A stretch of DNA of 64,000 bases from Candidatus Eiseniibacteriota bacterium (GTDB lineage Bacteria; Orphanbacterota; Orphanbacteria; Orphanbacterales; Orphanbacteraceae), in NCBI GenBank assembly GCA_029262235.1, contig JAJCZU010000004.1, forward strand, positions 744,001 to 808,000, in the 5' to 3' direction. Positions 1,905-32,384 of the stretch are shown piece after piece. A program made the position numbers and the translations under genes. Position 1 is the first letter of the stretch; each line of letters opens with the position of its first letter. The notes beneath the pieces were generated by a model. That model had not been told where the DNA came from. It made no database searches and was given only the letters and a program-made list of their open reading frames with translations.

Positions 1905-4625
1905 ATGCGCCGATTTCTGATCATTTTTCTGCTCGTTCCGCTGGCTGCCCTGATTGTTGCCTATGGGGGACTCAAGATCCTCGTGAAGCCCGAGGAGGTG
2001 CGCGACTGGATTACGGGTAATCTGTCGCGCCAGCTCGGGGTCGAGATCTCGATGGGCCAGGTGAAGCCCTCGCTCTGGCCGTTCGGTGTCCGGATCGCGG
2101 ACGGACGGATCGCGAACCCGGCGCCCGATGCCGACGCCCCGTTCGCCACGCTTGAAAGCGGCGAGATCTCTCTTCGCCTGCGTTCGCTCCTGAAACGGCG
2201 GATCGAACTGTCGGGCGCTGCGCTGCACGGACTCGCGCTTACGATCGTGCGCGATGAAAACGGCGACCTCGTGCTGAGCAAGCCGCGCGAGGGCGAAGCG
2301 GAAGTCGTGGTCGATACGTCCGCGTCGAAGAAGCGCAACCCGTTCGCCGATTTCGCGCTGCTCCTGTCGTCCGCCCAGATCGACAACAGTTCGCTCCGTA
2401 TCGTGGACCGCGCGACCGGGGTCGAACACACGATCAGAAACATCGAGCTCAGCACGGACCTGCAGGTCGAAAACGGCGGCGCCGATGTGGCCGCGCGGGG
2501 CGTCGGCTTCTTCGAAGGGATCGTGACGCCCGAAGTGCCGGCCGGCGTGCCGCTGCTCATCGTCGAATACGACCTGGCCGTGAAACCGGTCGAGGGTACG
2601 CTTTCGGTTCGTACCGCGGCGATCAAGCTCGGCGATCTCGGCGTGCGCGTATCCGGCGAGCTGAGCGATTACGAAACAGCGCCTCGTGGCGAACTCACGA
2701 TCGCGTCGCCCGGTCTCAAGATCGGCGACCTCCTGTCGCTCGTGCCCGCAAGCGCATGGAGCGAAACCGGACCGCTTCAGGCAACGGGCAATGTGGATCT
2801 CGCGGGATCCGTGACGCTTCGCGGCGAGGACCTGCCGGCGTACTCGATCGGGCTCGACGTGGAGAACGTGCGTGTCGAAAACCTGCTGCCGGGCGCGATC
2901 GAGAACGTGACGGGCAAGGTCAACGTGACCGAGACCGAAGTCCGCATCGACGGGCTTACGGCGCGGTTCGACGGGCAGCCGTTCCAGGTAAACGGCACGT
3001 TTGTTCCCGGCGAAGACCCCGGCTTCGATCTGCGCATCGACGGCGGGCTCGATCTCGCGATCGTCGCGAAGCTCGGCATGCTGCCGCCCGGCTCGTCGCT
3101 CGCGGGGTTTGTGACGGCGGACCTGCGCGCGCAGAAAAACGCGGGTGATCCGCGCTCGCTCGCGATGGACGGCACCGCCGACGTGAAGAACATGCGCTTC
3201 GCCTCCCCCGATCTCGGCGTACCGATCGAAAAAGTGAACGGCAGGTTCCGCCTGACCGGGGACGTGATCCGCGCCGACTCGATCTCGATGACCATGGGAC
3301 GATCGAAGCTGCGCGCGTCGCTTACCGCCTCGGATCCGTTCGGAACTCCGAACATCGCGCTTTCGGGAACGGCGAACGTGATCGACCTCGATCAGCTGTT
3401 TCCGCTCGAACTCGCAGAACGAAAAGCCGCGGCCGCGGGCACTCGCTCCGGTAGCGTCGGCGGCGCTCCGGCCGTGCCGATCGTGCCGCCGCTTCCGAAC
3501 GTGCGCGCGTCGGGAACGTTTCGCGCGGATTCCGTCTACACCGGCGGCAACAAGCTCGCGGGCGTTACGATGCAGTACACGATGGCGGGCGAGGAGGCGA
3601 AGACCGAACTCAAGATGAAAAGCGGGCTCTTCGGAACGGTCGCCGTGCAGGACGCGAGCGGCGACATCACAGTCAAGGGGGGAGTGGCGTCGGGGCCGCT
3701 CAAGGCCGCGAAGGCGAAGGCCGGCGTCGTGCCGCTCACCAACGCGTCCGCGAATCTGCGCGCCGAAGGCGACCGCGTCGAAATCCGCGGGCTCCGCGCG
3801 TCGGTCTATCAGGGTTCGCTTACGGGCGACGTGACGGTGACACTCGACGCGAAACGCATTCCCACGTATGAAGTCGCGATGAAGGCCAAAGACTGGGAGG
3901 CGAACGACTTCCTGACCGATCTGACGCCGGCCAAAAACATTCTGTACGGCAAGTTCGAAATGGACTCGAAGTGGTCGGGGCGCGGCGTGCTGCCCGAAGA
4001 AGCGCTCAAGAACCTCAAGGGCACGGGCAAAGCCACGACCCTGAATGGCGAACTGCGCAATCTGGAAGCGCTGAACGCCGTCGCGAATCTGCTCGGCATG
4101 AACGAATTGAAACAGCAGAAGTTCCGGTCGATGTTCACGGTATTCGAAGTGAAAGACGGCAAACTGCACACGGACGAGATTGTGATGAAGAGCGCGGACG
4201 CTGACTGGCGCGCCACGGGCGGCGTCAGCTTCGCGGGAAATCTCGATTACGTGATCAGCGCCACGCTTTCACCGGCGCTCAGCCAGAAGCTGAAGCAGAA
4301 ATCAGCGCTTACGGGGCTTCTGGCGAACAGCGAGGGGCGCATCGTGCTCGACTTCGTCGTCAAGGGCGACGCGAAGAAACCGAAAGTGTCGTACGATCCT
4401 ACGAAGTCTGCCGCGGCGAACAGTTCGAACGCGATCGGCACGATTCTCGAAAGCGTCGACAAGGACGGCCAGATTACGGGCGCGATCAACGAACTGCTGC
4501 AGGGCGATCCGAAGGACGCGGGGAAGACAGTCGATAAACTGCTCGGCGGCTTCCTGAACAAGAAAAAAGCGGCCGACCCGAAAACGGCCCCCGCCGCGCC
4601 CGACTCCGCGAAGAAACCGCAATAG
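1905..4625 (+). CDS. AsmA-family inner-membrane/periplasmic protein
   Basis: A 906-residue protein with one N-terminal membrane anchor (RFLIIFLLVPLAALIVAYGG) and a very long periplasmic part rich in short beta strands. The layout matches AsmA/TamB-like bridge proteins: an N-terminal AsmA segment (GNLSRQLGVEISMG, SLLKRRIELSGAAL) and a C-terminal AsmA_2-like region (LNGELRNLEALNAVANLLGM) near residues 715-800, then a Lys/Ala/Pro-rich tail. The family is linked to phospholipid transport between membranes and outer-membrane biogenesis. I chose the ATG at 1905 because AAGGAG lies eight bases upstream; a GTG at 1878 is in frame but has no ribosome site. The next gene begins nine bases after the stop. 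Confidence 0.85.
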   Translation: MRRFLIIFLLVPLAALIVAYGGLKILVKPEEVRDWITGNLSRQLGVEISMGQVKPSLWPFGVRIADGRIANPAPDADAPFATLESGEISLRLRSLLKRRIELSGAALHGLALTIVRDENGDLVLSKPREGEAEVVVDTSASKKRNPFADFALLLSSAQIDNSSLRIVDRATGVEHTIRNIELSTDLQVENGGADVAARGVGFFEGIVTPEVPAGVPLLIVEYDLAVKPVEGTLSVRTAAIKLGDLGVRVSGELSDYETAPRGELTIASPGLKIGDLLSLVPASAWSETGPLQATGNVDLAGSVTLRGEDLPAYSIGLDVENVRVENLLPGAIENVTGKVNVTETEVRIDGLTARFDGQPFQVNGTFVPGEDPGFDLRIDGGLDLAIVAKLGMLPPGSSLAGFVTADLRAQKNAGDPRSLAMDGTADVKNMRFASPDLGVPIEKVNGRFRLTGDVIRADSISMTMGRSKLRASLTASDPFGTPNIALSGTANVIDLDQLFPLELAERKAAAAGTRSGSVGGAPAVPIVPPLPNVRASGTFRADSVYTGGNKLAGVTMQYTMAGEEAKTELKMKSGLFGTVAVQDASGDITVKGGVASGPLKAAKAKAGVVPLTNASANLRAEGDRVEIRGLRASVYQGSLTGDVTVTLDAKRIPTYEVAMKAKDWEANDFLTDLTPAKNILYGKFEMDSKWSGRGVLPEEALKNLKGTGKATTLNGELRNLEALNAVANLLGMNELKQQKFRSMFTVFEVKDGKLHTDEIVMKSADADWRATGGVSFAGNLDYVISATLSPALSQKLKQKSALTGLLANSEGRIVLDFVVKGDAKKPKVSYDPTKSAAANSSNAIGTILESVDKDGQITGAINELLQGDPKDAGKTVDKLLGGFLNKKKAADPKTAPAAPDSAKKPQ

Positions 4626-5633: not shown

Positions 5634-6820
5634 GCGACACGTATCGTTACGGGAAAATCACCGACCGTGATCGCGCGCAGTACACGGACGTGCTCGACCA
5701 GGCTTTCCCCGACCTCTTTCGCCAGGACAACAAGAACCACTGGATCGATCGCGAGGATCCGTCCACGTTTCGCGGCCTCTGGAACGGCGACCGTCTCGCA
5801 GGCGGTCTCATGAACCTGCCGTGCGGCCAGTGGTTCGGCGGACGCTCCGTTCCGATGGGGGCCGTGCGCGGCGTGGCCGTCGCGTCCGAGAGCCGGGGCA
5901 GCGGCGTGGCGACTCGTCTCATGGACGAGATGCTGCGGGAAACCCGCGCGCAAAGCATGTCGATTTCGACGCTCTACCCGGCCACCCACACGTTCTATCG
6001 CAAGCTCGGCTACGAGATCGCCGGCTCGCAATGTCACTACGAACTGGACCTCCAGCGTATTTCCGCGCGCAACCGGCGCGCAAAGCTCGTGTCGTTCGAA
6101 GCGACGGACTTCGCGATGCGCGAGGGGATCTATCGCCTCGTGGCCGGGCGGATGAACGGTCTCATCGATCGCAGCCAGTGGTTCTGGCAGCGCACCGCCA
6201 CTTCGAAGGCCATGAAGGTGCGCGGCTATGTCGTTCTCGGAGAGAACGGGGATCCCGAGGGTTACTTCGTGTATGAGGCGGGGGAGAAAGCGCGTCCGCA
6301 CGAGGGGTATCGCATAGCCGTGCGCGACTGGATGTTCCTGACACGGAACGCGGCGGAGCGCGCGCTCGCGTTTTTCGCTGACTATCGTTCCGTGGCCTCG
6401 TCGATTCACTGGTGGGGCGCGCCGGTGGAGCCGATGGAAGTGATCGCGGGCGAAGAAGCGATCTCGATCAAGCTGCACCATCCCTGGATGGTCCGCATGG
6501 TCGACGTGCCGCGCGCGCTCGAGGCCCGCGGTTACCGCGGCGACCTCGAAGGCCGCATCTCGTTTGCGGTCGAAGACGATCGCTTCGAGTGGAACCGCGG
6601 TCCGTTTACGTTAACGCTCAAGGACGGGCGCGCGCAGATGGAAGACGGCGGTACGCCCGCCTTCACGATCGACGTGCGGGGACTCGCTCCGCTTTTCACC
6701 GCGTATTCGTCACCGGACGACCTCGCGATGCTCGATCTGCTGGACGCCGACACCGACACGCGCGCCGAACTCGCGGGCATCTTCGCGGGCCCGGTCCCGT
6801 GGATGGTCGACGCGTTCTAA
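5630..6820 (+). CDS. Eis-like GNAT N-acetyltransferase
   Basis: A 396-residue protein. The N-terminal GNAT domain carries the acetyl-CoA loop RGSGVATRLM near residues 88-97 preceded by the VRGVAV strand, and the TLYPATHTFYRKLGYE motif typical of Eis-type enzymes. A second GNAT-like domain fills the middle, and the last ~100 residues look like the sterol-carrier-like domain of the family (GRISFAVEDDRF, GLAPLFTAYSSPDDLAMLDLL). Eis proteins acetylate amines on aminoglycosides, peptides or proteins; the substrate here is unknown. The ATG at 5630 overlaps the ypdA stop (ATGA), which rules out the longer in-frame extension. The stop is four bases from that of the opposing gene. Confidence 0.85.
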   Translation: MSDTYRYGKITDRDRAQYTDVLDQAFPDLFRQDNKNHWIDREDPSTFRGLWNGDRLAGGLMNLPCGQWFGGRSVPMGAVRGVAVASESRGSGVATRLMDEMLRETRAQSMSISTLYPATHTFYRKLGYEIAGSQCHYELDLQRISARNRRAKLVSFEATDFAMREGIYRLVAGRMNGLIDRSQWFWQRTATSKAMKVRGYVVLGENGDPEGYFVYEAGEKARPHEGYRIAVRDWMFLTRNAAERALAFFADYRSVASSIHWWGAPVEPMEVIAGEEAISIKLHHPWMVRMVDVPRALEARGYRGDLEGRISFAVEDDRFEWNRGPFTLTLKDGRAQMEDGGTPAFTIDVRGLAPLFTAYSSPDDLAMLDLLDADTDTRAELAGIFAGPVPWMVDAF

Positions 6821-6824
6821 GACA

Positions 6825-9200
6825 TCATTCCTTCCCGTGCTTTCTTCTCAGCTCGTTCAGGTTGATTTCGATCGACTGATTCGACTCCAGCAGATCCTTC
6901 ATGATTTCGTCACGCGATCTCTCGGCCGGGTCCTTCGGTGCGTCCCCCTCGAGGAACGGCCACAGTATCCGGCGCACGTCATCGGGAAGCACGCTCTCGA
7001 GATATTCGAGCGCGGTCCCGCGCAGGTTGCGGTCGCTGGTATACAGACCGCGGAACGCGATGCGGAGCGGTTCGCGCGGAAGCACGAGCGACAGAATTGT
7101 GAACACGTGCTCCATGCTGCGGTTCGTGCGTTCGCGCAATACCTTGTCGACGATCGGGGAGTCTTCATCATTGTCGGACGGCTTGTCGAGCAGCCGCTGG
7201 CTCTCCCAGACGCGGCGATCCACTTTCGCCTCGGCAATGACGATGTCGAACACGCGTCGTCTTTCGATCTTGACCTCGGGCTGTTTTTCCTTCATGCGAA
7301 CGAGTGCCCGTCCCGACTGAAAGCGCACCTCGAAACGCTTGTCGCGGAGCGCGGTCAGCAGCCCCTGCACGGCGTGTTCGTGCGGGCTCCCCGTGAGCAG
7401 CCTCGGAATCCGCCTGCGAATCGCGAACTCTTCCTTCGCGTCGAGCAGCCGGTCGATGAGCTGGCCCGTAATGGCAGGAGCGATTTCAGCGAGCGCGCGT
7501 CCGGCGGAAAGCGAGACTTCGTCCCAGGCCAGAAGCGGAACCACATGCGCCGCCAGGTGAGGGTCGATCGGGCGGCTCGTGCGCAGGTACGTCCGAATCC
7601 GTTTCGCGTTGCCCGATCGCAGCTCCACGATGGCCGCGATCAGCGGGTCGCGAATGTCCGGTGCGCGCGCGGCCCCCTGCGTGGCGGTGTCGCCCGTTCC
7701 ACCCGCTCCGGCTCTCGCCTTCGCCTGCGCGCTCTCCGCCTCGTCAGCCTCGTCCGCATCGCCCGCCATGGTCGCCATCGAGTGCGTGTTCATCGTCTGC
7801 GTCATGTCCACGCCGGTGAGGTCGATGCCGGAAAGGGTCTGCATGATCGAAGGGTCGCCCCGAAACGCGCCCGGACCGTCGCCATCGAGCGCGGCTCTCT
7901 GGTTCAGCAGGCTCTTTTCGAGCGCGACGGCGCGCCCGCGGTTCATCGTGGTGGCCACGAATCCGGCGACGACCGAAACGAGGGCGGCGCCGAGGAGCAT
8001 TACGGGGTGGCTGATTCCGACAGGAAGGAAGAGCATCAGGCGCACGATTCCGCCGCCGATCGCGTCGCCCATGCGATCGAAGCCGACGTCGACGATCGGT
8101 TTTGTCGCGCGTTTCTTCTCGGGAATGATCGGCGCGAAAAGAAGTTCGTAGCCCGAGCGAAAGAATGAGCTCTGCAGCACCGCCTCGAATCCGCGGAAGA
8201 TCGCGGCCGACGTGAGACTCAGGAACGGAATGACGGTGAGCGCTCCGAGAATCACGAACCCCGGTCGTATGGCCACGGCCGCGGCCACGGAACGCGAGGG
8301 GTCGACTCCTTCGAGAAAGCGCCGCGTGAAACCGGTCTGCACCGCGAACGTAGCGAGCGAAACGAGCGTATAGAAGACGGCGAAAAATCGCATGAGGTCG
8401 TCGCCGTCCGTGAGCGTGGCGGCGGCCTGCGCTTTGAAGACGTAGTCGATCAGTGTGGCGGCGATGTTTCCGAGGAGAACGAGCAGTCCGAGGTTGCGGA
8501 TATAGGCCACGCGCATCAGGATGGCGAGCCCCGACGCCTTCTTTTTGTTCGAGCCGGCCCCTTCGCCGTTGCCGGTGCTGGCCGCAGGATTCAGATACGG
8601 CGCGCCCTTCGGTCGCATCGCGAGGAGCAGAACGGCGCACGCGACCTGGATGATCGCCAGCACGGGGAGCGTAGGCAGAACACCCAGCGTGGCGCCCATC
8701 CGTTCGGCCAGCAACCCGCCCAGCAGTCCGCCCAGAGTGGCGCCTCCCGCAATGCGTCCGATCCGCCGCTTCGCCGTGCGCGGGTCGAAGCGCTCGTTCA
8801 CGACCGACCAGAAACCCGAGATCAGAATGGACCCGATCGAGGCGACATGCAGATAGAGGAGAACGGCCGCGAGCTTCGGATTCTGGCCGGCGACGCCGAA
8901 CTCGATCGTGACGAGGAGCGCGCTCAGCAGAAAGAGAGCCGGGGTCAGTATCCCCGGGGACCAGCGGATCATCGCCTTGCTTGCAAAGTAGACGATCACG
9001 ATCGAGAAGATCGCGGCGGACATGAGCATCGGCGGGAGCTGGTCGACGGCGAAGTGCGACAGGAAGAGCGCGTCGCGGGCGGCCTTGTTGGCGACCTGCT
9101 GGGCGATCATCAGGGCCGAACAGATCGTGGCGATCCAGACAGCGCGGCTCAGTCCGGGCTCCTCCGGAGGAGTATCCTGGATTGATCGGGCTACGGGCAT
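6825..9200 (-). CDS. Multi-TM NTP/NDP-exchange-like (MFS) transporter fused to a HEAT-repeat domain
   Basis: A 791-residue protein. Residues ~20-430 contain about twelve hydrophobic segments in an MFS-type arrangement; phrases such as QQVANKAARDALFLSHF and GFWSVVNERFDPRTAKRRIGRIAGGATLGGLLGG recall ATP:ADP antiporter (NTT/Tlc)-like proteins found as AAA-family MFS relatives in free-living bacteria. Residues ~520-790 are helical, charged and repeated, consistent with HEAT-like repeats (LIAAIVELRSGNAKRIRTYL, LLTALRDKRFEVRFQSGRAL). A 100-residue linker rich in Ala, Gly, Asp and Glu joins the two. A nucleotide-exchange role is weakly supported; the fusion itself is clear. It faces the acetyltransferase convergently. 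Confidence 0.75.
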   Translation of the reverse strand: MPVARSIQDTPPEEPGLSRAVWIATICSALMIAQQVANKAARDALFLSHFAVDQLPPMLMSAAIFSIVIVYFASKAMIRWSPGILTPALFLLSALLVTIEFGVAGQNPKLAAVLLYLHVASIGSILISGFWSVVNERFDPRTAKRRIGRIAGGATLGGLLGGLLAERMGATLGVLPTLPVLAIIQVACAVLLLAMRPKGAPYLNPAASTGNGEGAGSNKKKASGLAILMRVAYIRNLGLLVLLGNIAATLIDYVFKAQAAATLTDGDDLMRFFAVFYTLVSLATFAVQTGFTRRFLEGVDPSRSVAAAVAIRPGFVILGALTVIPFLSLTSAAIFRGFEAVLQSSFFRSGYELLFAPIIPEKKRATKPIVDVGFDRMGDAIGGGIVRLMLFLPVGISHPVMLLGAALVSVVAGFVATTMNRGRAVALEKSLLNQRAALDGDGPGAFRGDPSIMQTLSGIDLTGVDMTQTMNTHSMATMAGDADEADEAESAQAKARAGAGGTGDTATQGAARAPDIRDPLIAAIVELRSGNAKRIRTYLRTSRPIDPHLAAHVVPLLAWDEVSLSAGRALAEIAPAITGQLIDRLLDAKEEFAIRRRIPRLLTGSPHEHAVQGLLTALRDKRFEVRFQSGRALVRMKEKQPEVKIERRRVFDIVIAEAKVDRRVWESQRLLDKPSDNDEDSPIVDKVLRERTNRSMEHVFTILSLVLPREPLRIAFRGLYTSDRNLRGTALEYLESVLPDDVRRILWPFLEGDAPKDPAERSRDEIMKDLLESNQSIEINLNELRRKHGKE

Positions 9201-25066: not shown

Positions 25067-25079
25067 CCGCGCTTATTTA

Positions 25080-25224
25080 TTTCTCTTCTTCTTTCCTCTT
25101 TTTCCCTCCGCTCCGTTCCTTCCGCTCCTTTCCCTCCGCTCCTTTCCCTCCGCTCCTTTCCCCCGTTCCTTTTCCCTTCCCCCTTCCTTCCGCTCCTTTC
25201 CCTTCCTATCCAATCCTTTCCTTT
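25080..25224. repeat. Polypyrimidine tract with 14-bp tandem repeat
   Basis: About 145 bases almost purely C and T on the + strand. Inside it the 14-mer TCCGCTCCTTTCCC is repeated exactly three times (25121-25162), followed by a degenerate fourth copy. No open frame of interest crosses it. Such polypurine/polypyrimidine runs can form triplex (H-) DNA. Confidence 0.75.
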
Positions 25225-25232
25225 CCGCTGTC

Positions 25233-25350
25233 TGATGTTGGTGTTTCTGGTGAGAGGGGCAGTCCCCTGAGCCCCGAGGCCCATTGGCCGTACGCCAGGA
25301 CGAGGGGCGAAGGGGATCTGCCCCCTCTCCCCAAAAAACCACCAACATCA
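25233..25350. repeat. Large imperfect palindrome, MITE-like
   Basis: A left arm at 25233-25268 and a right arm at 25311-25350 are inverted copies of each other with a few mismatches and length differences (both begin TGATGTTGGTG read inward). The 42-bp spacer shows a weaker palindrome of its own. The remainder of this 500-bp gap, to 25569, is an ordinary-looking leader with one 8-pair hairpin at 25504-25523 and no coding sequence that I can support. The palindrome could be a small non-autonomous element or a transcribed hairpin. Confidence 0.6.
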
Positions 25351-25569: not shown

Positions 25570-26271
25570 ATGAAGAAGATCATCTTCATGACACTGCTCC
25601 TGTCCGTGGCCGGGTCCGCATGGGCTCAGAACACGGGTACGGTGACGGTGCAGGGTAGTGTGCAGAAAGCAGCCGCGCTTCGCTGGTGGGATTTCACGGC
25701 GAACAACACGGAAACGGGCACGAACGCGGACGCCGGTTCCGGCGCCAACACGGTGAACGATCCGCTCAGCTTCACGCTGGACGTCGGTGACGTGGCCGCG
25801 GGCAACAACCTGAACGACTTCGCGGGCGGCTCGGTGGACATCGCGCTCCGCTCGAACTCCGCGTACGAACTCGCCGCGCAGGTTACGTCGAGCTCGGGCT
25901 TCGGTACGAACGCGGCCGAAGACATCGTGCTTTCGGACATCGGTTTCGGGATCACGGGTCTCGCCGCATCCGGTTCGGGCGCGAAAGTGAACCCGGCTGC
26001 CGTTACCGCTTCGCTGATCACGGTCGGCTACAGCAGCGACCCGACGGCGGCCGCGACGGACGCCGACGGCGAGCCGACGTACAGCGCCGACTTCTCGGAT
26101 CTCAGCGCGAGCACGACGGTGCTGACCGGCCCGCGGATTTCGTACCGCGGCGGCCGCAACTCGCCGAACAACGCGCTTGTGGCGACGACGGCTTACGCCG
26201 TGGTCCCGCAGTACTACACGCCGACGGCCTCCTGGGCCGCGACGGTCACGTACACGCTGACTACGCCGTAG
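25570..26271 (+). CDS. Exported subunit-like protein, probable major fibre subunit
   Basis: A 233-residue exported protein with a clean signal peptide (MKKIIFMTLLLSVAGSAWAQ). The mature chain is Ala/Ser/Thr/Gly-rich, beta-type, without cysteines (GTVTVQGSVQKAAALRWWDF, SVDIALRSNSAYELAAQVTSS, WAATVTYTLTTP), like secreted structural subunits of pili or coat fibres of the SCPU/WxL type. It is the first gene of a three-gene run ending in a pilus-type chaperone, so I infer a major structural subunit. Start ATG 25570 has only a weak AGGA nearby; an in-frame extension upstream is not credible. A 200-base leader without genes precedes it. Confidence 0.65.
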   Translation: MKKIIFMTLLLSVAGSAWAQNTGTVTVQGSVQKAAALRWWDFTANNTETGTNADAGSGANTVNDPLSFTLDVGDVAAGNNLNDFAGGSVDIALRSNSAYELAAQVTSSSGFGTNAAEDIVLSDIGFGITGLAASGSGAKVNPAAVTASLITVGYSSDPTAAATDADGEPTYSADFSDLSASTTVLTGPRISYRGGRNSPNNALVATTAYAVVPQYYTPTASWAATVTYTLTTP

Positions 26272-26275
26272 TCGC

Positions 26276-26932
26276 ATGCAGACCTTGTCGAGCCATACGC
26301 GCGGAGGGGGGCTTCGGCCTCTCTCCGCGTTGTTCGTCCCCGCGCTGGCGTGCGTTCTGGCGCTCGCCCCCGGGCGCCTTGCCGCAGACGACTATGTCGA
26401 AGCGCTGTTCGAACTCGTACTGCCCGATCCCGAGCTGAGCGGAGACCGCACCGTGTCCACTGTGCTGCCTCCGGTCGACCTCGGTACGATCAACATGGGC
26501 GAGTACTCGGCCCTGAACGCCGCCGACTTTGCGGGAGGCCGCATCCGCATCCGCATTCGATCGGGGTCGTTCTACTTCCCGCCGTATCGTCTCTGGGCGC
26601 GTGTGCTGACGCCGAACGACCCGACGCCCGGGAACTTCAACGCGTTCGACATCGGCATGGGCGTGCAGCGAATCCAGGCCGGCGCACACGTCGTCAATCC
26701 CGACTACGATTACGATCCCGCAACCGTTCTGAAGGACATCGACGAAGTGCCTATCTTTCTCGGAACGGTCGGTAGCCTGGGATTCTCACCTCCGTATACC
26801 GAGCTCTATCACACGACCGAATTTCGTGTCGGCCGCAACAACCGGTTCGACCTCGTGTTCGCCGTGGGGCCGCAGTTTTTCTCGGTCGACTCTCTCGAAG
26901 GAGTCGTGATCGAAATAGGAGTCACGATATGA
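26276..26932 (+). CDS. Exported minor-subunit-like protein
   Basis: A 218-residue exported protein (signal ALFVPALACVLALAPGRLAA). The mature part is beta-rich with repeated aromatic patches (VLPPVDLGTINMGEYSALNAADFAGGRIRIRIRSGSFYFPPYRLWARV) and ends in a strand (VVIEIGVTI) that could serve for donor-strand exchange. Not recognised as a named family. It starts four bases after the stop of the preceding subunit and overlaps the chaperone gene by 4 bp (ATGA). Context therefore suggests a minor or tip subunit of the same surface structure. Confidence 0.6.
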   Translation: MQTLSSHTRGGGLRPLSALFVPALACVLALAPGRLAADDYVEALFELVLPDPELSGDRTVSTVLPPVDLGTINMGEYSALNAADFAGGRIRIRIRSGSFYFPPYRLWARVLTPNDPTPGNFNAFDIGMGVQRIQAGAHVVNPDYDYDPATVLKDIDEVPIFLGTVGSLGFSPPYTELYHTTEFRVGRNNRFDLVFAVGPQFFSVDSLEGVVIEIGVTI

Positions 26933-27816
26933 CGCGAATGATACGAACGGGTCTCGCTCTGGTGTGCACGCTGGGGGCGCTGGCGGCCCTGGGGCCCGCC
27001 GGTACGACTCATGCCGGCGACGTCACGATTTTTCCGAGCATGATCGAGACGCGCGTGCCGCCGGGCGGCGACTTCACGACCGTGATCCGCGTCGTCTACA
27101 CGAAGGACGACTCGCTCGACACGGCGCCCCTTCGTATTCTGCTGGACATGGAAGACTGGGACATGGACCCGAACGGGCGCCTGTCGTTCACGGCGGAGCC
27201 GATCGACGAGCGAAGCGTGCGGCCGTGGGTGCATTACACGCCCGGCGAAGACGAAATCGTACCGGGCGAAGAAGTGTTCATCCGGCTCTCTGTAGTCGTG
27301 CCGCCTGACGCGCTGCCGGGGGAGTATCGCGGTGCGCTGATCGCACAGCCGCGCGCGCCCTACAAGCCCGTGAAAGCCGGCGAGAAGCGCCTCGATCTTC
27401 GCCTCCGTCTCGCGACCGTGCTCTATATCGAGGTGCCGCCGATCGAGCGGGGTGCCGATCTGATCGGCCTCGAGGTGCGCCCGAACCACGAGAACATCTG
27501 GTGCGTGTATCCGACATTCGTGAACGTCGGAACGGGGCACCTGCGCATTTACGATTCGTTCACCGTGACGCCGAACACACTCGCGCCGAGCGATCCTGTC
27601 ATCGCAATGCCGTTTGCCGAATCGGGGGTCGTGCTTCCGGGACGCCATCGCACGATCGAGATTCCGATGCTCGGCGGCCTGGGGGCCGGCGAATATCGCC
27701 TTTTCTACCAGGCCGAAGCGGGGGAGGATCTGCCCGTGATGGAAGGGGAGACGATCTTTTACGTCCCCGATGGTCTGGAACCGCCCGTGACCGCGACAGC
27801 AGCGGGTGTGCGCTGA
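26929..27816 (+). CDS. Periplasmic fimbrial-type chaperone
   Basis: A 295-residue exported protein with two immunoglobulin-like domains. After the signal peptide the first domain begins VTIFPSMIETRVPPGGDFTTVIRV and has the WVHYTPGEDEIVPGEEVFIRLSVVVPPDALPGEYRGALIAQP block. Its alternating hydrophobic strand and Pro-rich turns match PapD-like chaperones and the broader DUF916-like surface-assembly proteins. The second domain (LIGLEVRPNHENIWCVYPTFVNVGTGHLRIYDSFTV) is also Ig-like. Such proteins hold fibre subunits for delivery to an outer-membrane usher. An intrinsic terminator follows 40 bases later, closing the operon. Confidence 0.7.
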   Translation: MTRMIRTGLALVCTLGALAALGPAGTTHAGDVTIFPSMIETRVPPGGDFTTVIRVVYTKDDSLDTAPLRILLDMEDWDMDPNGRLSFTAEPIDERSVRPWVHYTPGEDEIVPGEEVFIRLSVVVPPDALPGEYRGALIAQPRAPYKPVKAGEKRLDLRLRLATVLYIEVPPIERGADLIGLEVRPNHENIWCVYPTFVNVGTGHLRIYDSFTVTPNTLAPSDPVIAMPFAESGVVLPGRHRTIEIPMLGGLGAGEYRLFYQAEAGEDLPVMEGETIFYVPDGLEPPVTATAAGVR

Positions 27817-27855
27817 CAGAGCTCGAAACGCCTTCAATAATCCATCTCCTCGACA

Positions 27856-27887
27856 CGCGTCCCGGGTTTGCCCCGCGGGCGCGTTTT
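27856..27887 (+). terminator. Intrinsic terminator of the subunit-chaperone operon
   Basis: An 11-pair GC-rich stem (one bulged C, one G-U) with its arms at 27856-27866 and 27872-27883 and a TTTGC loop, followed by TTTT at 27884-27887 and more T residues. Confidence 0.7.
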
Positions 27888-27894
27888 CGTTTAC

Positions 27895-27934
27895 GCTGAC
27901 CTCAGTCAGGCTCGGCTGACCGCAGTCAGGCTCG
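27895..27934. promoter_or_regulatory. Tandem 20-bp repeat with internal dyads upstream of cupin gene
   Basis: Two adjacent copies of GCTGACCTCAGTCAGGCTCG, differing at one base, occupy 27895-27914 and 27915-27934. Each contains the inverted pair CTGAC-N4-GTCAG. The 20-bp period equals about two helical turns, as expected for cooperative binding by a dimeric regulator. It ends 21 bases before the cupin start. Confidence 0.5.
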
Positions 27935-27955
27935 AATGATCAGAAAGGCGGTTCC

Positions 27956-28342
27956 ATGACGAACGACGAACATGCCGTGCCCCCCGTGATCGCGCTCGGA
28001 GAGAAACTCGCGCGCATGAGCGATCCGTGGACGCCGAAAGTCGTCGCGCAGCTGAACGACTATCACTGCAAGCTCGCGAAGCTGGAGGGCGCGTTCGTCT
28101 GGCACAGCCATCCGGAAACCGATGAACTGTTTCTCGTGGTCGAAGGCGAAATGGGAATCGCGTTTCGCGGCGACCGCACCGTGCGTCTTCGTCCGGGCGA
28201 AATGATCGTGGTGCCGGCCGGCATGGAGCACAAGCCGTTCGCCGAGACATCGTGCAGCGTGCTTCTGATCGAACCCGCGGGAACCGTGAACACGGGCGAC
28301 ACGGGCGGCGATCGCACGGCTCCGGCAGACGACTGGATCTGA
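27956..28342 (+). CDS. Small cupin-domain protein
   Basis: A 128-residue single-domain cupin. Motif 1 is [20 protein letters not shown] (residues ~44-63), with the metal-binding His-x-His and Glu. Motif 2 is [18 protein letters not shown] (~79-96), with the last His. The fold probably binds a divalent metal; no substrate can be assigned. Start ATG 27956 has AAAGGCG six bases upstream. It begins a two-gene unit with the AHSA1-like gene, 28 bases apart, behind a tandem operator-like repeat. Both genes lie between the fibre operon and the usher-like gene and may be unrelated insertions. Confidence 0.85.
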
Positions 28343-28370
28343 AGACACTCGGAACGGAAGGGGACGGAGC

Positions 28371-28796
28371 ATGAAGAAGATCATTCACGCGGTTCATGTG
28401 CACGCCGCTCCGGCGCGCGTCTATGGCGCACTTACGACGGTGGAAGGGCTGGCGGGGTGGTGGTCGAAGAAGGTCACGGTGGAGCCGGGGGTAGGCGGGC
28501 TGGTCCGTTTCACGTTTGCGGGGGACTTTCATCCGCACATGAAGCAGACGGCGCTCGACACGAATCGCCGCGTTGCCTGGACGTGCGTCGACGGGCACGA
28601 CAACTGGAGCGATAACACGTTTTCGTTCGCGCTGAACGAGCGCGACGGCGAGACGATGCTTCAGTTCGAACAGCAGTATGCGCGGGAACTCACGGACGAG
28701 GCCTACGGAATCTACAATTTCAACTGGGGCTACTATCTGTCGAGTTTGAAGGCGCTCTGCGAGCAGGGCGAAGGAACGCCGTTTACTCCCGCGTAG
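28371..28796 (+). CDS. SRPBCC/AHSA1-family protein
   Basis: A 141-residue START-like domain protein. It starts MKKIIHAVHVHAAPARVYGALTTVEGLAGWW, a classic AHSA1 opening, and has GGLVRFTF, RRVAWTCVDGHDNWSDNTFSFAL and the C-terminal helix NWGYYLSSLKALCEQG. The family forms a hydrophobic pocket; some members aid Hsp90, and bacterial ones are mostly uncharacterised ligand-binding proteins. It follows the cupin gene directly. Its stop is 12 bases from the stop of the opposing usher-like gene. Start ATG 28371 with GACGGAG upstream. Confidence 0.85.
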   Translation: MKKIIHAVHVHAAPARVYGALTTVEGLAGWWSKKVTVEPGVGGLVRFTFAGDFHPHMKQTALDTNRRVAWTCVDGHDNWSDNTFSFALNERDGETMLQFEQQYARELTDEAYGIYNFNWGYYLSSLKALCEQGEGTPFTPA

Positions 28797-28808
28797 ATCT
28801 CGTGCGAC

Positions 28809-31271
28809 TCAGCGTGACGTGAAGATCGTACGCGTCACGGCGCGCTCCGGCTTCGTGACGGGGATGAGAAGCGTCTCCGGCTCGCCATCCATCGGAATCA
28901 TCACGCGCACGTTCGTTTCCGGCACTTCATAGCCGGGAACCGAAGTGCGGTCGATCACGATCGAATGCCCGCCCGGTGCAATGTCGGAGATCCGAAAACG
29001 GCCGTCGGACCACGTGATCGTGTCCGAACCGTTGCTGGCCACGAGATGCACTTCCGGCATCCCCTCTTCCGCTTCGTCCCGCACGCCGTTCCTGTTCGCA
29101 TCAAGGAACACGAGTCCCGTTACGGAACGATTGAACCCGGTACGAAACGCGACGTCCACCGACTCGAACGCAGGTGCCGTGACGCGGCGCTCACTCTCTT
29201 CGAGCAGCGTGAGATCCGCGCGCAGCGTCTTGAGAGCAAGCCGGATTTCATGATCGCCGGCGGGGATGGCCTTGAACAGGTAGCGACCGTAGTCATCCGT
29301 GATCGCCCGCTTCTTCCCGCCGTTCAGCAGGATCTCTACACCCGGGATCGGGCGGTCGTCACCATCCATTACGCCGTTCATGTTCTGATCGAGATAAACC
29401 TGCCCCCCGATGTCGGCGATATGGCGCACCGGTCGGGAGGGCGTGGGAGAGTGGGCGAGCGGCCCGTCCTTTTCGCCGAACTCGAAACGGCCCTTCATGT
29501 TGATGCGCGAGTCGACCGTGTACTGCCGTTCATGAACGACAACATCCGTGCGGTGGCTCTCGCCGAATCGATACCCGAGGCGAAAATTCAGGAGATAGTC
29601 TTTGCGCTCGGGATCGGTCTGGTCGTTCCAGCTCATGCCGGCCGTGAACTGCACGCGGCTCGAAAGGGAGCGCCCGACCGTGAGCGCGGCGGATGTGATT
29701 CCTTTCTGCGACCACGAAGCGCCGAGCGTGGTCATGCCGAGCGGCGTCGTCTGTGCGAGCCCGCCCGAGTAGGCGCGCGCGTTGTCGAGATTGCCGCGCC
29801 CCCGGGCCGAAACGTACCAGCTCCCCCGCAGCACGCCGCCGCGCAGGTCGAACAGGAACGTCTTGTCGTAGACACCGTCCGTCATGACTTCGTTGTACGC
29901 CGCGCTTGCCGTTTCGATGATCCCGGCGCCGAGATAGAACGAAACCTGCCCGTTGTTCACGACGCTCGCACCGGACAACGTGTCTACATCGTCGCGCACG
30001 ATCTCGGTCCGGGATCCGTGCAGTGAGACAAACGAAACGGGAGAGAGGCGTCCGCCGACCGAGTAGATCCGCGCACCGCGTTCGGGGAAACTCGTGGTCG
30101 GGATCTGGAACTCGCGTTCGTGATACGCGTAGCGCCCGTTCAGCTGGAGCGCGCGCCACGGAGTCAGCTCGATGCGTGATTCGGTGGCGAGGCGATCCGA
30201 GACACGCTCGCCCTGCGTGGCGAAGTGGCCGAGGCTGTTCTGCAGGCGGACCCAGCGTCGCGCGTACCTGTGCTGGGCGGCGACGAGCATTCCCCGTTTC
30301 GCGTCGTGGGTCCGGCCGCGTGCGACGGCGCCGAACGAAACGGCCTGGCCGGCCGGCGCGCCCGGCCGCGCGCCCCACGACCAGCTCGACGCGATGACAT
30401 CGGTGTCGAAGTGAGGGCGCGTCAGTCGGCCCTCGCCTCCGGTCGCCCCGTCAGCCAGCTTCAAATACGTGAACGACAGTCGCTGTTCGCCGCGGCCCTT
30501 CGCGTAGTCCCAGCGCGCGCCGCGTCCCCCCGCGTTCAGCCAGGAGATTTCGCTCCCGACGCCGAGATCGCCCAGCGAGTACGCGTTGCCGGAACGATGC
30601 GCGTACGAGACGAGGAACGAGCGCAGGACCGGGGACTCGCTCTCGGCCGCCTGCACGAACGAACGTGACCGGAGGCTCCCGCGCCCGGCGCGGGCGAGCG
30701 TTTCGACGTTCAGACCGCCGTCCGTGATGTGATCGTTCTGATACGCGTACGCGTTGTAGCGGACTTCTTTCATCCCGAATCTGCCGAGCTCCGAGACACC
30801 GGGAGTAAGCGTTGCGCGGCGACTGACGAGCGTGATCTCGTATTCGTCGGCGCTTACGTGAAGCTGTGCGTTGCAGAGCAGTCCGATCACCGTAATCGGC
30901 AGCACGAGATCGTCGGCGCCGGCACCCGCGGCGAGTCCGGGAGGAAGCGCGAGCGTCGGTTGATTCTCCCGTTCGAGTTCCCCGCTCACGGAGTGATAGC
31001 GGTGGGTGGTCCCTTCACGCGGGTCCGTGACGGAGACCACCTGGCCGTCACCGTCGAACGTGAGGTCCAGGCCGAGGATCCGTGCGATCGGGGCAGCGGG
31101 GAGAAACCACTCGTCATCCCGCTTGTGCGGAACGCGGACGTCGAAGTGCGCCTCCTGGCCGTCGACCGTGACGGTCGGCGTGTCGGGGCGCGCCCAGGCG
31201 GGGCCCGGCGGCCCCTGCATGAGCAGGATCGCGAGCGTAAGCCCTGAAATGTGCCGCAGTCGATGCATCAA
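28809..31271 (-). CDS. Outer-membrane usher-like barrel with SdrD-like repeats
   Basis: An 820-residue exported protein. After the signal peptide (residues 1-27) comes a domain like the N-terminal domain of copper amine oxidases (EWFLPAAPIARILGLDLTFDGDGQVVSV, ~55-80). A long run of barrel strands follows from ~170 to ~600, including YSLGDLGVGSEISWLNAGGRGARW near 230, which recalls the conserved GD and RG motifs of fimbrial ushers. Two Ca-binding SdrD/CnaB-like repeats end the protein (GQVYLDQNMNGVMDGDDRPIPG near 622 and GLVFLDANRNGVRDEAEEGMP near 720). It faces the subunit/chaperone operon 1 kb away. An assembly-platform role is inferred. Confidence 0.7.
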   Translation of the reverse strand: MMHRLRHISGLTLAILLMQGPPGPAWARPDTPTVTVDGQEAHFDVRVPHKRDDEWFLPAAPIARILGLDLTFDGDGQVVSVTDPREGTTHRYHSVSGELERENQPTLALPPGLAAGAGADDLVLPITVIGLLCNAQLHVSADEYEITLVSRRATLTPGVSELGRFGMKEVRYNAYAYQNDHITDGGLNVETLARAGRGSLRSRSFVQAAESESPVLRSFLVSYAHRSGNAYSLGDLGVGSEISWLNAGGRGARWDYAKGRGEQRLSFTYLKLADGATGGEGRLTRPHFDTDVIASSWSWGARPGAPAGQAVSFGAVARGRTHDAKRGMLVAAQHRYARRWVRLQNSLGHFATQGERVSDRLATESRIELTPWRALQLNGRYAYHEREFQIPTTSFPERGARIYSVGGRLSPVSFVSLHGSRTEIVRDDVDTLSGASVVNNGQVSFYLGAGIIETASAAYNEVMTDGVYDKTFLFDLRGGVLRGSWYVSARGRGNLDNARAYSGGLAQTTPLGMTTLGASWSQKGITSAALTVGRSLSSRVQFTAGMSWNDQTDPERKDYLLNFRLGYRFGESHRTDVVVHERQYTVDSRINMKGRFEFGEKDGPLAHSPTPSRPVRHIADIGGQVYLDQNMNGVMDGDDRPIPGVEILLNGGKKRAITDDYGRYLFKAIPAGDHEIRLALKTLRADLTLLEESERRVTAPAFESVDVAFRTGFNRSVTGLVFLDANRNGVRDEAEEGMPEVHLVASNGSDTITWSDGRFRISDIAPGGHSIVIDRTSVPGYEVPETNVRVMIPMDGEPETLLIPVTKPERAVTRTIFTSR

Positions 31272-31425: not shown

Positions 31426-31550
31426 TTTTCCCGCTCATTCTTCCGAAGTCCTCGTCCCTCTCTTGCGGGAGATCGTCCCGGAGAGCAAAATAAAGGGGGC
31501 AAAGTTGCCAGCCGATGAAGTCGGTGCAGAAAGTAAAAAGGAGACCCGTC

Positions 31551-32384
31551 GTGAAAATCAGACCGAACGCGAAACCCATCCCGCCCTTCGGCTCGGGAAA
31601 GTCCGATCCCGCGAAAAAGACCGGAGAGAAGACGACGAAAACGCCGGTCGATCAGGCCGCCGATCTCGCGAAGACCGCGGCCGACGTGACGAAGTCGAAA
31701 ACGAGCAGGCTCGGCAAGTTGATAGGGGGCGCGGCCGCGGGCGCCGCGGATGCCGCCGGAAAAGCGGCCCCCGCCGCCGGCACGGTTGCGGGCGCGGTCG
31801 CGGGTGTCGGCGCGGCGGCCTCCGGAGCCGCGGCCGCGGGAGTCGGTGGAGCTGCTTCTGCCGTCGCCGCCGGTGCGAGGGCCGGCGCGGCTGCAGGAGG
31901 GCGTTCGATGGCGATGTTGCAGACGATCGGTTCGCGGGCGGGCGGCGCCATGAGAGAGGGTCTCGCCGGCGTCATGCCGCGGATCGATCGTTTCCAGAAC
32001 ATCATGCAGCGCCACACCGAACTCGGGTACCTCGTGCGCCTCGGCGGAAAGAACGATGACGAGAACGACGAGGAGATCAGGAAGGCCGCGCTCGGGCTCA
32101 TGGAGCTCAAGGCAGGCGCGGGCGGCGCATCGCCGGGACTGGCGGAGCTGATGGATCGTGTCAAGGATCTCGATCAGAACAGCCCCGCCGGGGAGTTCGC
32201 GAAGCAGCTCGAAGGTGCGGAAGAGTTGATCGAGCAGGCTGGTCAGGAACTCGAAGAACTGGACACGCAGCTCGCACACGAACTGCAGACGGCGGCGTCG
32301 AAACTCACCGAGGCACAGACGCTGCACGGCGAAGTCAACAGGAAGTTCTCGGACGCCGTGGATCGCGTGATCGGAAACATCTGA
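31551..32384 (+). CDS. Ala/Gly-rich protein with coiled-coil C-terminus, function unknown
   Basis: A 277-residue protein that I do not recognise. The N-terminus is basic and polar, without a signal peptide. Residues ~60-125 are almost entirely Ala, Gly and Val with glycine-zipper spacing (GAAAGAADAAGKAAPAAGTVAGAV), able to form a membrane hairpin. The C-terminal third is acidic and heptad-like (QLEGAEELIEQAGQELEELDTQLAHELQTAASKLTEAQ), a probable coiled coil. I chose GTG 31551, since AAGGAG lies seven bases upstream; the in-frame ATG at 31515 has no ribosome site. It stands alone, converging on the glycerol-3-phosphate dehydrogenase gene. Confidence 0.7.
   Translation: MKIRPNAKPIPPFGSGKSDPAKKTGEKTTKTPVDQAADLAKTAADVTKSKTSRLGKLIGGAAAGAADAAGKAAPAAGTVAGAVAGVGAAASGAAAAGVGGAASAVAAGARAGAAAGGRSMAMLQTIGSRAGGAMREGLAGVMPRIDRFQNIMQRHTELGYLVRLGGKNDDENDEEIRKAALGLMELKAGAGGASPGLAELMDRVKDLDQNSPAGEFAKQLEGAEELIEQAGQELEELDTQLAHELQTAASKLTEAQTLHGEVNRKFSDAVDRVIGNI

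Follow-up and report, generated by a model that had tools for sequence, protein, structure and literature searches.

A probable divergent chaperone-usher locus in a Candidatus Eiseniibacteriota bacterium, with a chaperone related to PapD and WxLIP

The DNA analyzed here, a stretch of 64,000 nucleotides from a Candidatus Eiseniibacteriota bacterium (hereafter, the window), carries a locus encoding two small exported subunits, a two-domain chaperone, and a large outer-membrane barrel protein (Table 1). The locus was found to be one member of a widespread, unannotated family of bacterial systems for surface-protein assembly. As judged from profile comparisons of the chaperone, the predicted structure of the barrel, and the conservation of the gene set, it is probably a divergent version of the chaperone-usher pathway. 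The parts of the usher are most likely modular in this family, with the plug mostly lost, the N-terminal domain swapped, and C-terminal domains (CTDs) of the SdrD type.

Chaperone homology with PapD and WxLIP

A preliminary description of this DNA had proposed a two-domain PapD-like chaperone, and the profile comparison bore this out. The chaperone profile was aligned with canonical PapD chaperones (FimC, ElfD, YehC, and seven others) at an hhalign probability of 99.6 (E 3e-24, 219 columns) and with five WxLIP proteins at 98.5 (E 2.7e-15, 222 columns, both domains). The scores were 172 for PapD and 114 for WxLIP, while column-shuffled controls reached at most 17 and 21, respectively; with this control, two immunoglobulin (Ig)-like domains homologous to those of PapD were recognized. 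When PapD and WxLIP were compared directly, the score was only 32. Moreover, when a whole genome was searched, the four-sequence profile of the window lineage matched a PF00345 chaperone at 6e-10, and this chaperone has a PF00577 usher as its neighbor. At the level of families, these profiles show the chaperone to be homologous to both PapD and WxLIP, and on this basis its sequence links the pilus chaperones with a cell-wall protein of Gram-positive bacteria. The order of PapD, the divergent family, and WxLIP was not settled by the chaperone tree, in which the deep forks were unresolved and some rows were only fragments. As the iterated chaperone hidden Markov model (HMM) drifted to NEW3-type Ig domains in its final rounds, the first-round search and hhalign with shuffles were relied upon.

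The Pfam PapD_N model did not match the window chaperone and matched one of 16 family members (8.8e-6). The anchors for the subunit carboxylate, Arg8 and Lys112, are lost, the aligned residues being Ser and Thr; the archaic chaperones likewise are without these Arg/Lys anchors (PMC4654587). An alternating-hydrophobic segment, in which R160, T163, and Y166 are conserved, aligns near the G1 donor strand of FimC and, from its sequence, may act as a strand donor. The window chaperone ends without a SPOR tail, while those of sister loci carry SPOR domains, which bind peptidoglycan. In an additional set in genome G002 (chaperone at L019, 1131–2753), two SPOR domains are placed between the two Ig-like domains of the chaperone.

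The resemblance to WxLIP brings in a second reading, in which the locus is a Gram-negative counterpart of the Gram-positive WxL/WxLIP clusters (DUF916 plus DUF3324, PF13731). A peptidoglycan-linked protein would then permanently hold and complete a surface domain, the barrel would pass or anchor a non-polymerized complex, and no fiber would be formed. A paper that leaves chaperones unmentioned (PMC10599100) predicts that WxLIP binds peptidoglycan and supplies a strand by which the WxL sandwich is completed. The latter is the principle of PapD. Among solved structures, the best sequence match of the chaperone was EfmWxLIP1 (9e-8, covering both domains); the pilus chaperones ranked lower, EcpB being the best of them at 0.0017, although the family profile scored higher for PapD. 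In the test for DUF916-DUF3324, PF06030 was matched by single relatives at 9e-4 and not by the window chaperone. The SPOR domains of the sister chaperones fit a holder linked to peptidoglycan, whereas the window chaperone has neither a SPOR tail nor a membrane anchor, such as the C-terminal membrane helix of WxLIP. Similarly, the subunits are small and exported and end in strands resembling WxL ends (e.g., TLVWTL), but no WxL homology was detectable in them (hhalign at most 15%). As WxLIP clusters also are without an outer-membrane barrel, and the barrel in the window has usher features, this reading was considered unlikely. Separately, two proteins of genome G260 (L137, 92–745 and 843–1547) matched Pfam WxL at E 3.5e-9 and 5.7e-7; they end in ...ATVTYTPVQ and are possibly WxL proteins beyond the classical Gram-positive hosts. 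G260 also has a WxLIP/chaperone-like protein (L138), and its class is represented by two genomes in the sample.

Structure of the barrel and its comparison with ushers

The barrel protein was modeled with AlphaFold2 from an alignment of 24 sequences, six of them covering the barrel, at a predicted local distance difference test (pLDDT) score of 83.2. In a Foldseek search of the PDB, ranks 1–13 were all FimD or PapC (E 3e-17 to 2.5e-9), in agreement with the usher-like barrel described earlier. Among the long matches listed, only ushers covered the barrel and both C-terminal domains (163–808). The model has two beta-sandwich domains at residues 618–806, which correspond to the pair of SdrD-like repeats (PF17210, E 2.6e-15). 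The alignments of the PapC and FimD chains run as far as residue 804–808 and so take in both C-terminal domains; therefore, the SdrD pair occupies the position of CTD1–CTD2. The pair also matched usher CTDs at hhalign probabilities of 97–98. Thus, the repeats noted earlier are present, but they are no replacement for the C-terminal domains of ushers, since they align with CTD1–CTD2.

The GD and RG motifs of ushers are present as well (Table 1). With a spacing of GD-x13-16-RG, the motif occurred in 15 of 28 family barrels against 4.6 expected (P 5e-6); this enrichment rests on the narrow spacing, the wide pattern being uninformative. A large barrel with a plug had been expected, and the model agreed as to the barrel alone: it contains no plug insertion, and its longest gap between strands is 15 residues by DSSP. 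The plug HMM likewise gave no match in the window barrel, with clear matches only in three relatives (L118, L058, and L116), which the canonical usher HMM matched at 5e-16, 3e-13, and 7e-12, plug and CTDs included. Most likely, the plug was lost in most family members, including that of the window.

In the case of the N-terminal domain, PapC_N did not match, and the domain is of a Cu_amine_oxidN1-like type instead. The window match to PF07833 was weak and under the cut-off (E 0.024; 0.044 in L015), so that the amine-oxidase-like domain proposed earlier draws its support from a relative (L058, 4e-8) and from the confident AlphaFold2 model of the domain. Other family barrels have a secretin-N-like T2SS-T3SS_pil_N domain (2e-5 in L066 and 1e-5 in L069) or NEW3/FixG_C (L060 and L019) at this end.

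With the usher N-terminal domain, the plug, the 24 strands, and a Pfam Usher match all lacking, the window barrel is by strict membership not a PF00577 usher; of the usher features, it has the two C-terminal beta-sandwich domains. Its tie to ushers is structural and by way of its relatives. Compared with the classical and archaic chaperone-usher systems (FimC-FimD, PapD-PapC, and Csu; PF00345 and PF00577), the family shares the two-Ig chaperone by profile, the large barrel with its GD-RG motif and C-terminal pair, and, in other phyla, the operon order. It differs in the strand number, the replaced N-terminal domain, the mostly plug-less barrels, the SdrD_B type of the C-terminal domains, the SPOR-tailed chaperones of sister loci, and subunits unlike known pilins.

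Alternatively, the barrel might be a pore of the porin, polysaccharide, or electron-conduit type (similar to MtrB, AlgE, or Occ) lying beside an operon for a chaperone-dependent surface protein. When only the barrel was compared, MtrB and porins scored on par with ushers, many Occ/AlgE porins among them, and MtrB (6r2q), a barrel of the 26 strands predicted here, reached Z 18.7 at 5.2 Å over 385 residues. However, MtrB/PioB barrels have neither the CTD pair nor a chaperone operon, and electron-transfer partners are absent at the window locus. The missing plug and the lack of a sequence link to ushers suit a pore of this kind, whereas the usher CTD pair and the plug-bearing relatives do not. 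The barrel is, moreover, tied to the chaperone in more than 20 loci of many phyla, and cytochrome or polysaccharide genes were not recognized in the operons read. Accordingly, such a pore was regarded as very improbable.

Several observations weigh against a divergent chaperone-usher pathway as well. The Z score of MtrB slightly exceeds that of PapC (18.1), and the 26 strands and the missing plug depart from the ushers. By hhalign, the barrel part of the window lineage matched canonical ushers at approximately 1%, which is no sequence link, and no window protein matched Pfam Usher or PapD at E ≤ 10. The close barrel alignment comprises six sequences only, and the predicted template modeling score of the model was 0.54, so the placement of the domains is uncertain. 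In addition, none of the subunit profiles, those of pilins and WxL included, matched the subunits, and their AlphaFold2 model was unusable (pLDDT 49). The assembly of a fiber, as originally proposed, was therefore not supported, and nothing in the analysis shows one.

Gene layout, conservation, and subunits

All four genes were confirmed by a check of the open reading frames (ORFs). The two subunit genes and the chaperone gene form a tight plus-strand operon, coupled as described earlier by a 4-nt gap and an ATGA overlap, and faced by the minus-strand barrel gene. The terminator said to close this operon was not supported, since a scan gave 6 terminator-like sites, about the number that chance would give (6.1). 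The subunits had been called free of cysteine; this holds for subunit 1, while subunit 2 has one cysteine, within its signal peptide.

Table 1. Features of the locus, in window coordinates
Feature	Positions	Strand	Description
Subunit 1	25570–26271	+	233 aa, ATG start; exported, beta-rich, no Cys
Subunit 2	26276–26932	+	218 aa; exported; 4-nt gap after subunit 1
Chaperone	26929–27816	+	295 aa; ATGA overlap with subunit 2; two-domain PapD/WxLIP-like, periplasmic
Alternating-hydrophobic segment of chaperone, KRLDLRLRLATVLY	27385–27426	+	Residues 153–166; aligns near FimC G1 donor strand
Cupin gene	27956–28342	+	By Pfam; between chaperone and barrel genes
AHSA1/SRPBCC gene	28371–28796	+	By Pfam; between chaperone and barrel genes
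Usher-like outer-membrane barrel protein	28809–31271	-	820 aa, TTG start
Two SdrD_B/CarboxypepD_reg domains	28854–29420	-	DxNxNGxxD loops; at usher CTD1–CTD2 position
26-strand barrel	29481–30779	-	Residues 165–597; DSSP of AlphaFold2 model
Usher-type motif, GDLGVGSEISWLNAGGRG	30519–30572	-	Residues 234–251; compare FimD GDGYTQGDIFDGINFRG
N-terminal periplasmic domain, Cu_amine_oxidN1-like	30822–31184	-	Residues ~30–150; replaces usher N-terminal domain

Since the cupin and AHSA1/SRPBCC genes are both missing from the sister genome (contig L021/L007), they are probably an insertion unrelated to the system. These intervening genes, together with the opposite strands, would suit a barrel and a chaperone operon that are merely unrelated neighbors. 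This reading is highly improbable and was already refuted by conservation. In the sister genome (G001), where the barrel and the chaperone are 88% and 92% identical to those of the window, the two ORFs converge approximately 0.27 kb apart with neither gene between them. The convergent order is also kept in a different genus (G004, 37–55% identity) and in another phylum (G387 and G343); the layout is conserved in five genera of two phyla. Furthermore, the source genome has a second, diverged copy in which all genes run in one direction (two subunits, a SPOR-tailed chaperone, and a 1195-aa barrel). This copy lies at 4400–10429 of L016 (G000:C8:194000-210000), and the N-terminus of its barrel is long, rich in Thr and Asn, and probably disordered. 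The split over two strands, stressed in the preliminary description, is thus real in the window and a feature of the lineage; outside it, the genes are co-directional, and in other phyla the order is subunit-chaperone-usher.

The spread of the system was analyzed in loci chosen by the chaperone profile alone, which was built from four chaperones of the window lineage; matches at model positions >280 were SPOR domains only and were disregarded. The chaperone family was found by this profile in more than 30 genomes of other phyla. In the first-round search, it was present in roughly 40 of 386 genomes, mostly of uncultured relatives, while PF00577 ushers were present in 8 of 372 mostly uncultured relative genomes; the divergent version is therefore the commoner one in the sampled genomes. 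No match to PF00577 or PF00345 was found in the source genome or elsewhere in its small phylum, represented by 7 genomes.

An ORF of at least 750 aa lay directly downstream of the chaperone in 20 of 31 loci, compared with 2 of 139 background ORFs (p = 7e-15), and in further chaperone loci the large ORF stands slightly further off. An HMM seeded with the window barrel matched the C-terminal part of the large family proteins at E 1e-10 to 1e-65, and these end, as the window barrel does, in an SdrD-like pair. Pfam Usher matched none of the 14 large family proteins scanned. Among related and distant genomes alike, conservation of the gene set exceeds chance, which supports the preliminary description. 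In named Deinococcus plasmids, it appears as four genes annotated "hypothetical protein"; one such co-directional set, on a plasmid of a Deinococcus sp., is located at 79362–84964 of CP058536.

Two further observations concern single loci. One region (L100, G359:C75:97000-116000) encodes a PF00577 usher together with three proteins of the chaperone family and one protein of 907 aa, so that classical and divergent versions of the pathway may lie side by side there. In L056 and L059, the barrel and the adjacent chaperone-family protein have at their ends one short TPR-like tail in common (YSTGDYQ.A...W..LL..DPGN..A), which may be a shared docking tag.

Subunits 1 and 2 are distant homologues of each other, with common segments of the types ..DPxxxxKxxDxxPxF.. 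and YAVGPQFYTP. Homologues of subunit 1, whose last strand is ATVTYTLTTP, were found in L015 (3505–4188, 55%), L107, L017, and L053, always ahead of the chaperone. The C-terminal motif GxY...[VIL]x[YFL][TS][LIV] occurred in 18 of 168 ORFs upstream of the chaperone and in 5 of 765 controls; three of these five adjoin PF00577 ushers, and one (L061) lies between a divergent-family chaperone and barrel. Subunit 1 had no match in Pfam, NCBIfam, or PHROG, and nothing convincing was found in the subunits or the chaperone with NCBIfam and Pfam. Despite their similar C-terminal strands, the subunits were not assigned to the WxL domains or the pilins, as hhalign gave no convincing link (WxL, FimA-type, archaic-type, and other sets).

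Around the locus, a partly palindromic dispersed repeat of approximately 57 bp (~25262–25319) lies immediately upstream of the operon and adjoins a pyrimidine-rich run (25075–25230). This stretch has 28 matches in the source genome, most over the repeat part at 75–95% identity. The repeat had no Rfam match, and no riboswitch was matched by Rfam upstream of the operon. Divergent from the barrel gene is a gene for an Ala-rich protein of approximately 290–300 aa (31515–32384, plus strand, in the window; 6247–7149, minus strand, in L007).

Proposed mechanism and significance

In the proposed pathway, the two small exported proteins, in which signal peptides are seen, would reach the periplasm via Sec. 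There, the two-Ig-domain chaperone would capture them, most likely by providing a beta-strand, like PapD and WxLIP, and would pass them to the 26-strand outer-membrane barrel. The N-terminal domain of the barrel may receive the chaperone-subunit complexes, and its two C-terminal beta-sandwich domains, from their position, would hold the outgoing subunit in the manner of CTD1–CTD2. After transit through the barrel, the subunits would finish outside the cell as a fiber or a short surface complex. Because the barrel is without a plug, another means of closure is needed; candidates include the N-terminal domain, the C-terminal domains, and a resident subunit. In the sister loci, the SPOR domains, as inferred from their family, would anchor the chaperone to peptidoglycan.

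In the open-access literature, no paper was found that combined chaperone-usher with SdrD, NEW3, or SPOR domains. More tentatively, and with the balance somewhat against it, the family may represent an unrecognized and widespread kind of donor-strand secretion, standing either at the origin of the Gram-negative chaperone-usher and the Gram-positive WxL-WxLIP systems or between the two. If so, the same strand-lending protein would work with a 26-strand usher devoid of a plug in diderms and with a complex of the cell wall in monoderms. The divergent version of the pathway escapes current annotation, and it raises the question of how a plug-less usher is gated. For each domain of the usher, the family supplies natural variants, and an evolutionary connection of the pilus chaperones with WxLIP of Gram-positive bacteria becomes testable.

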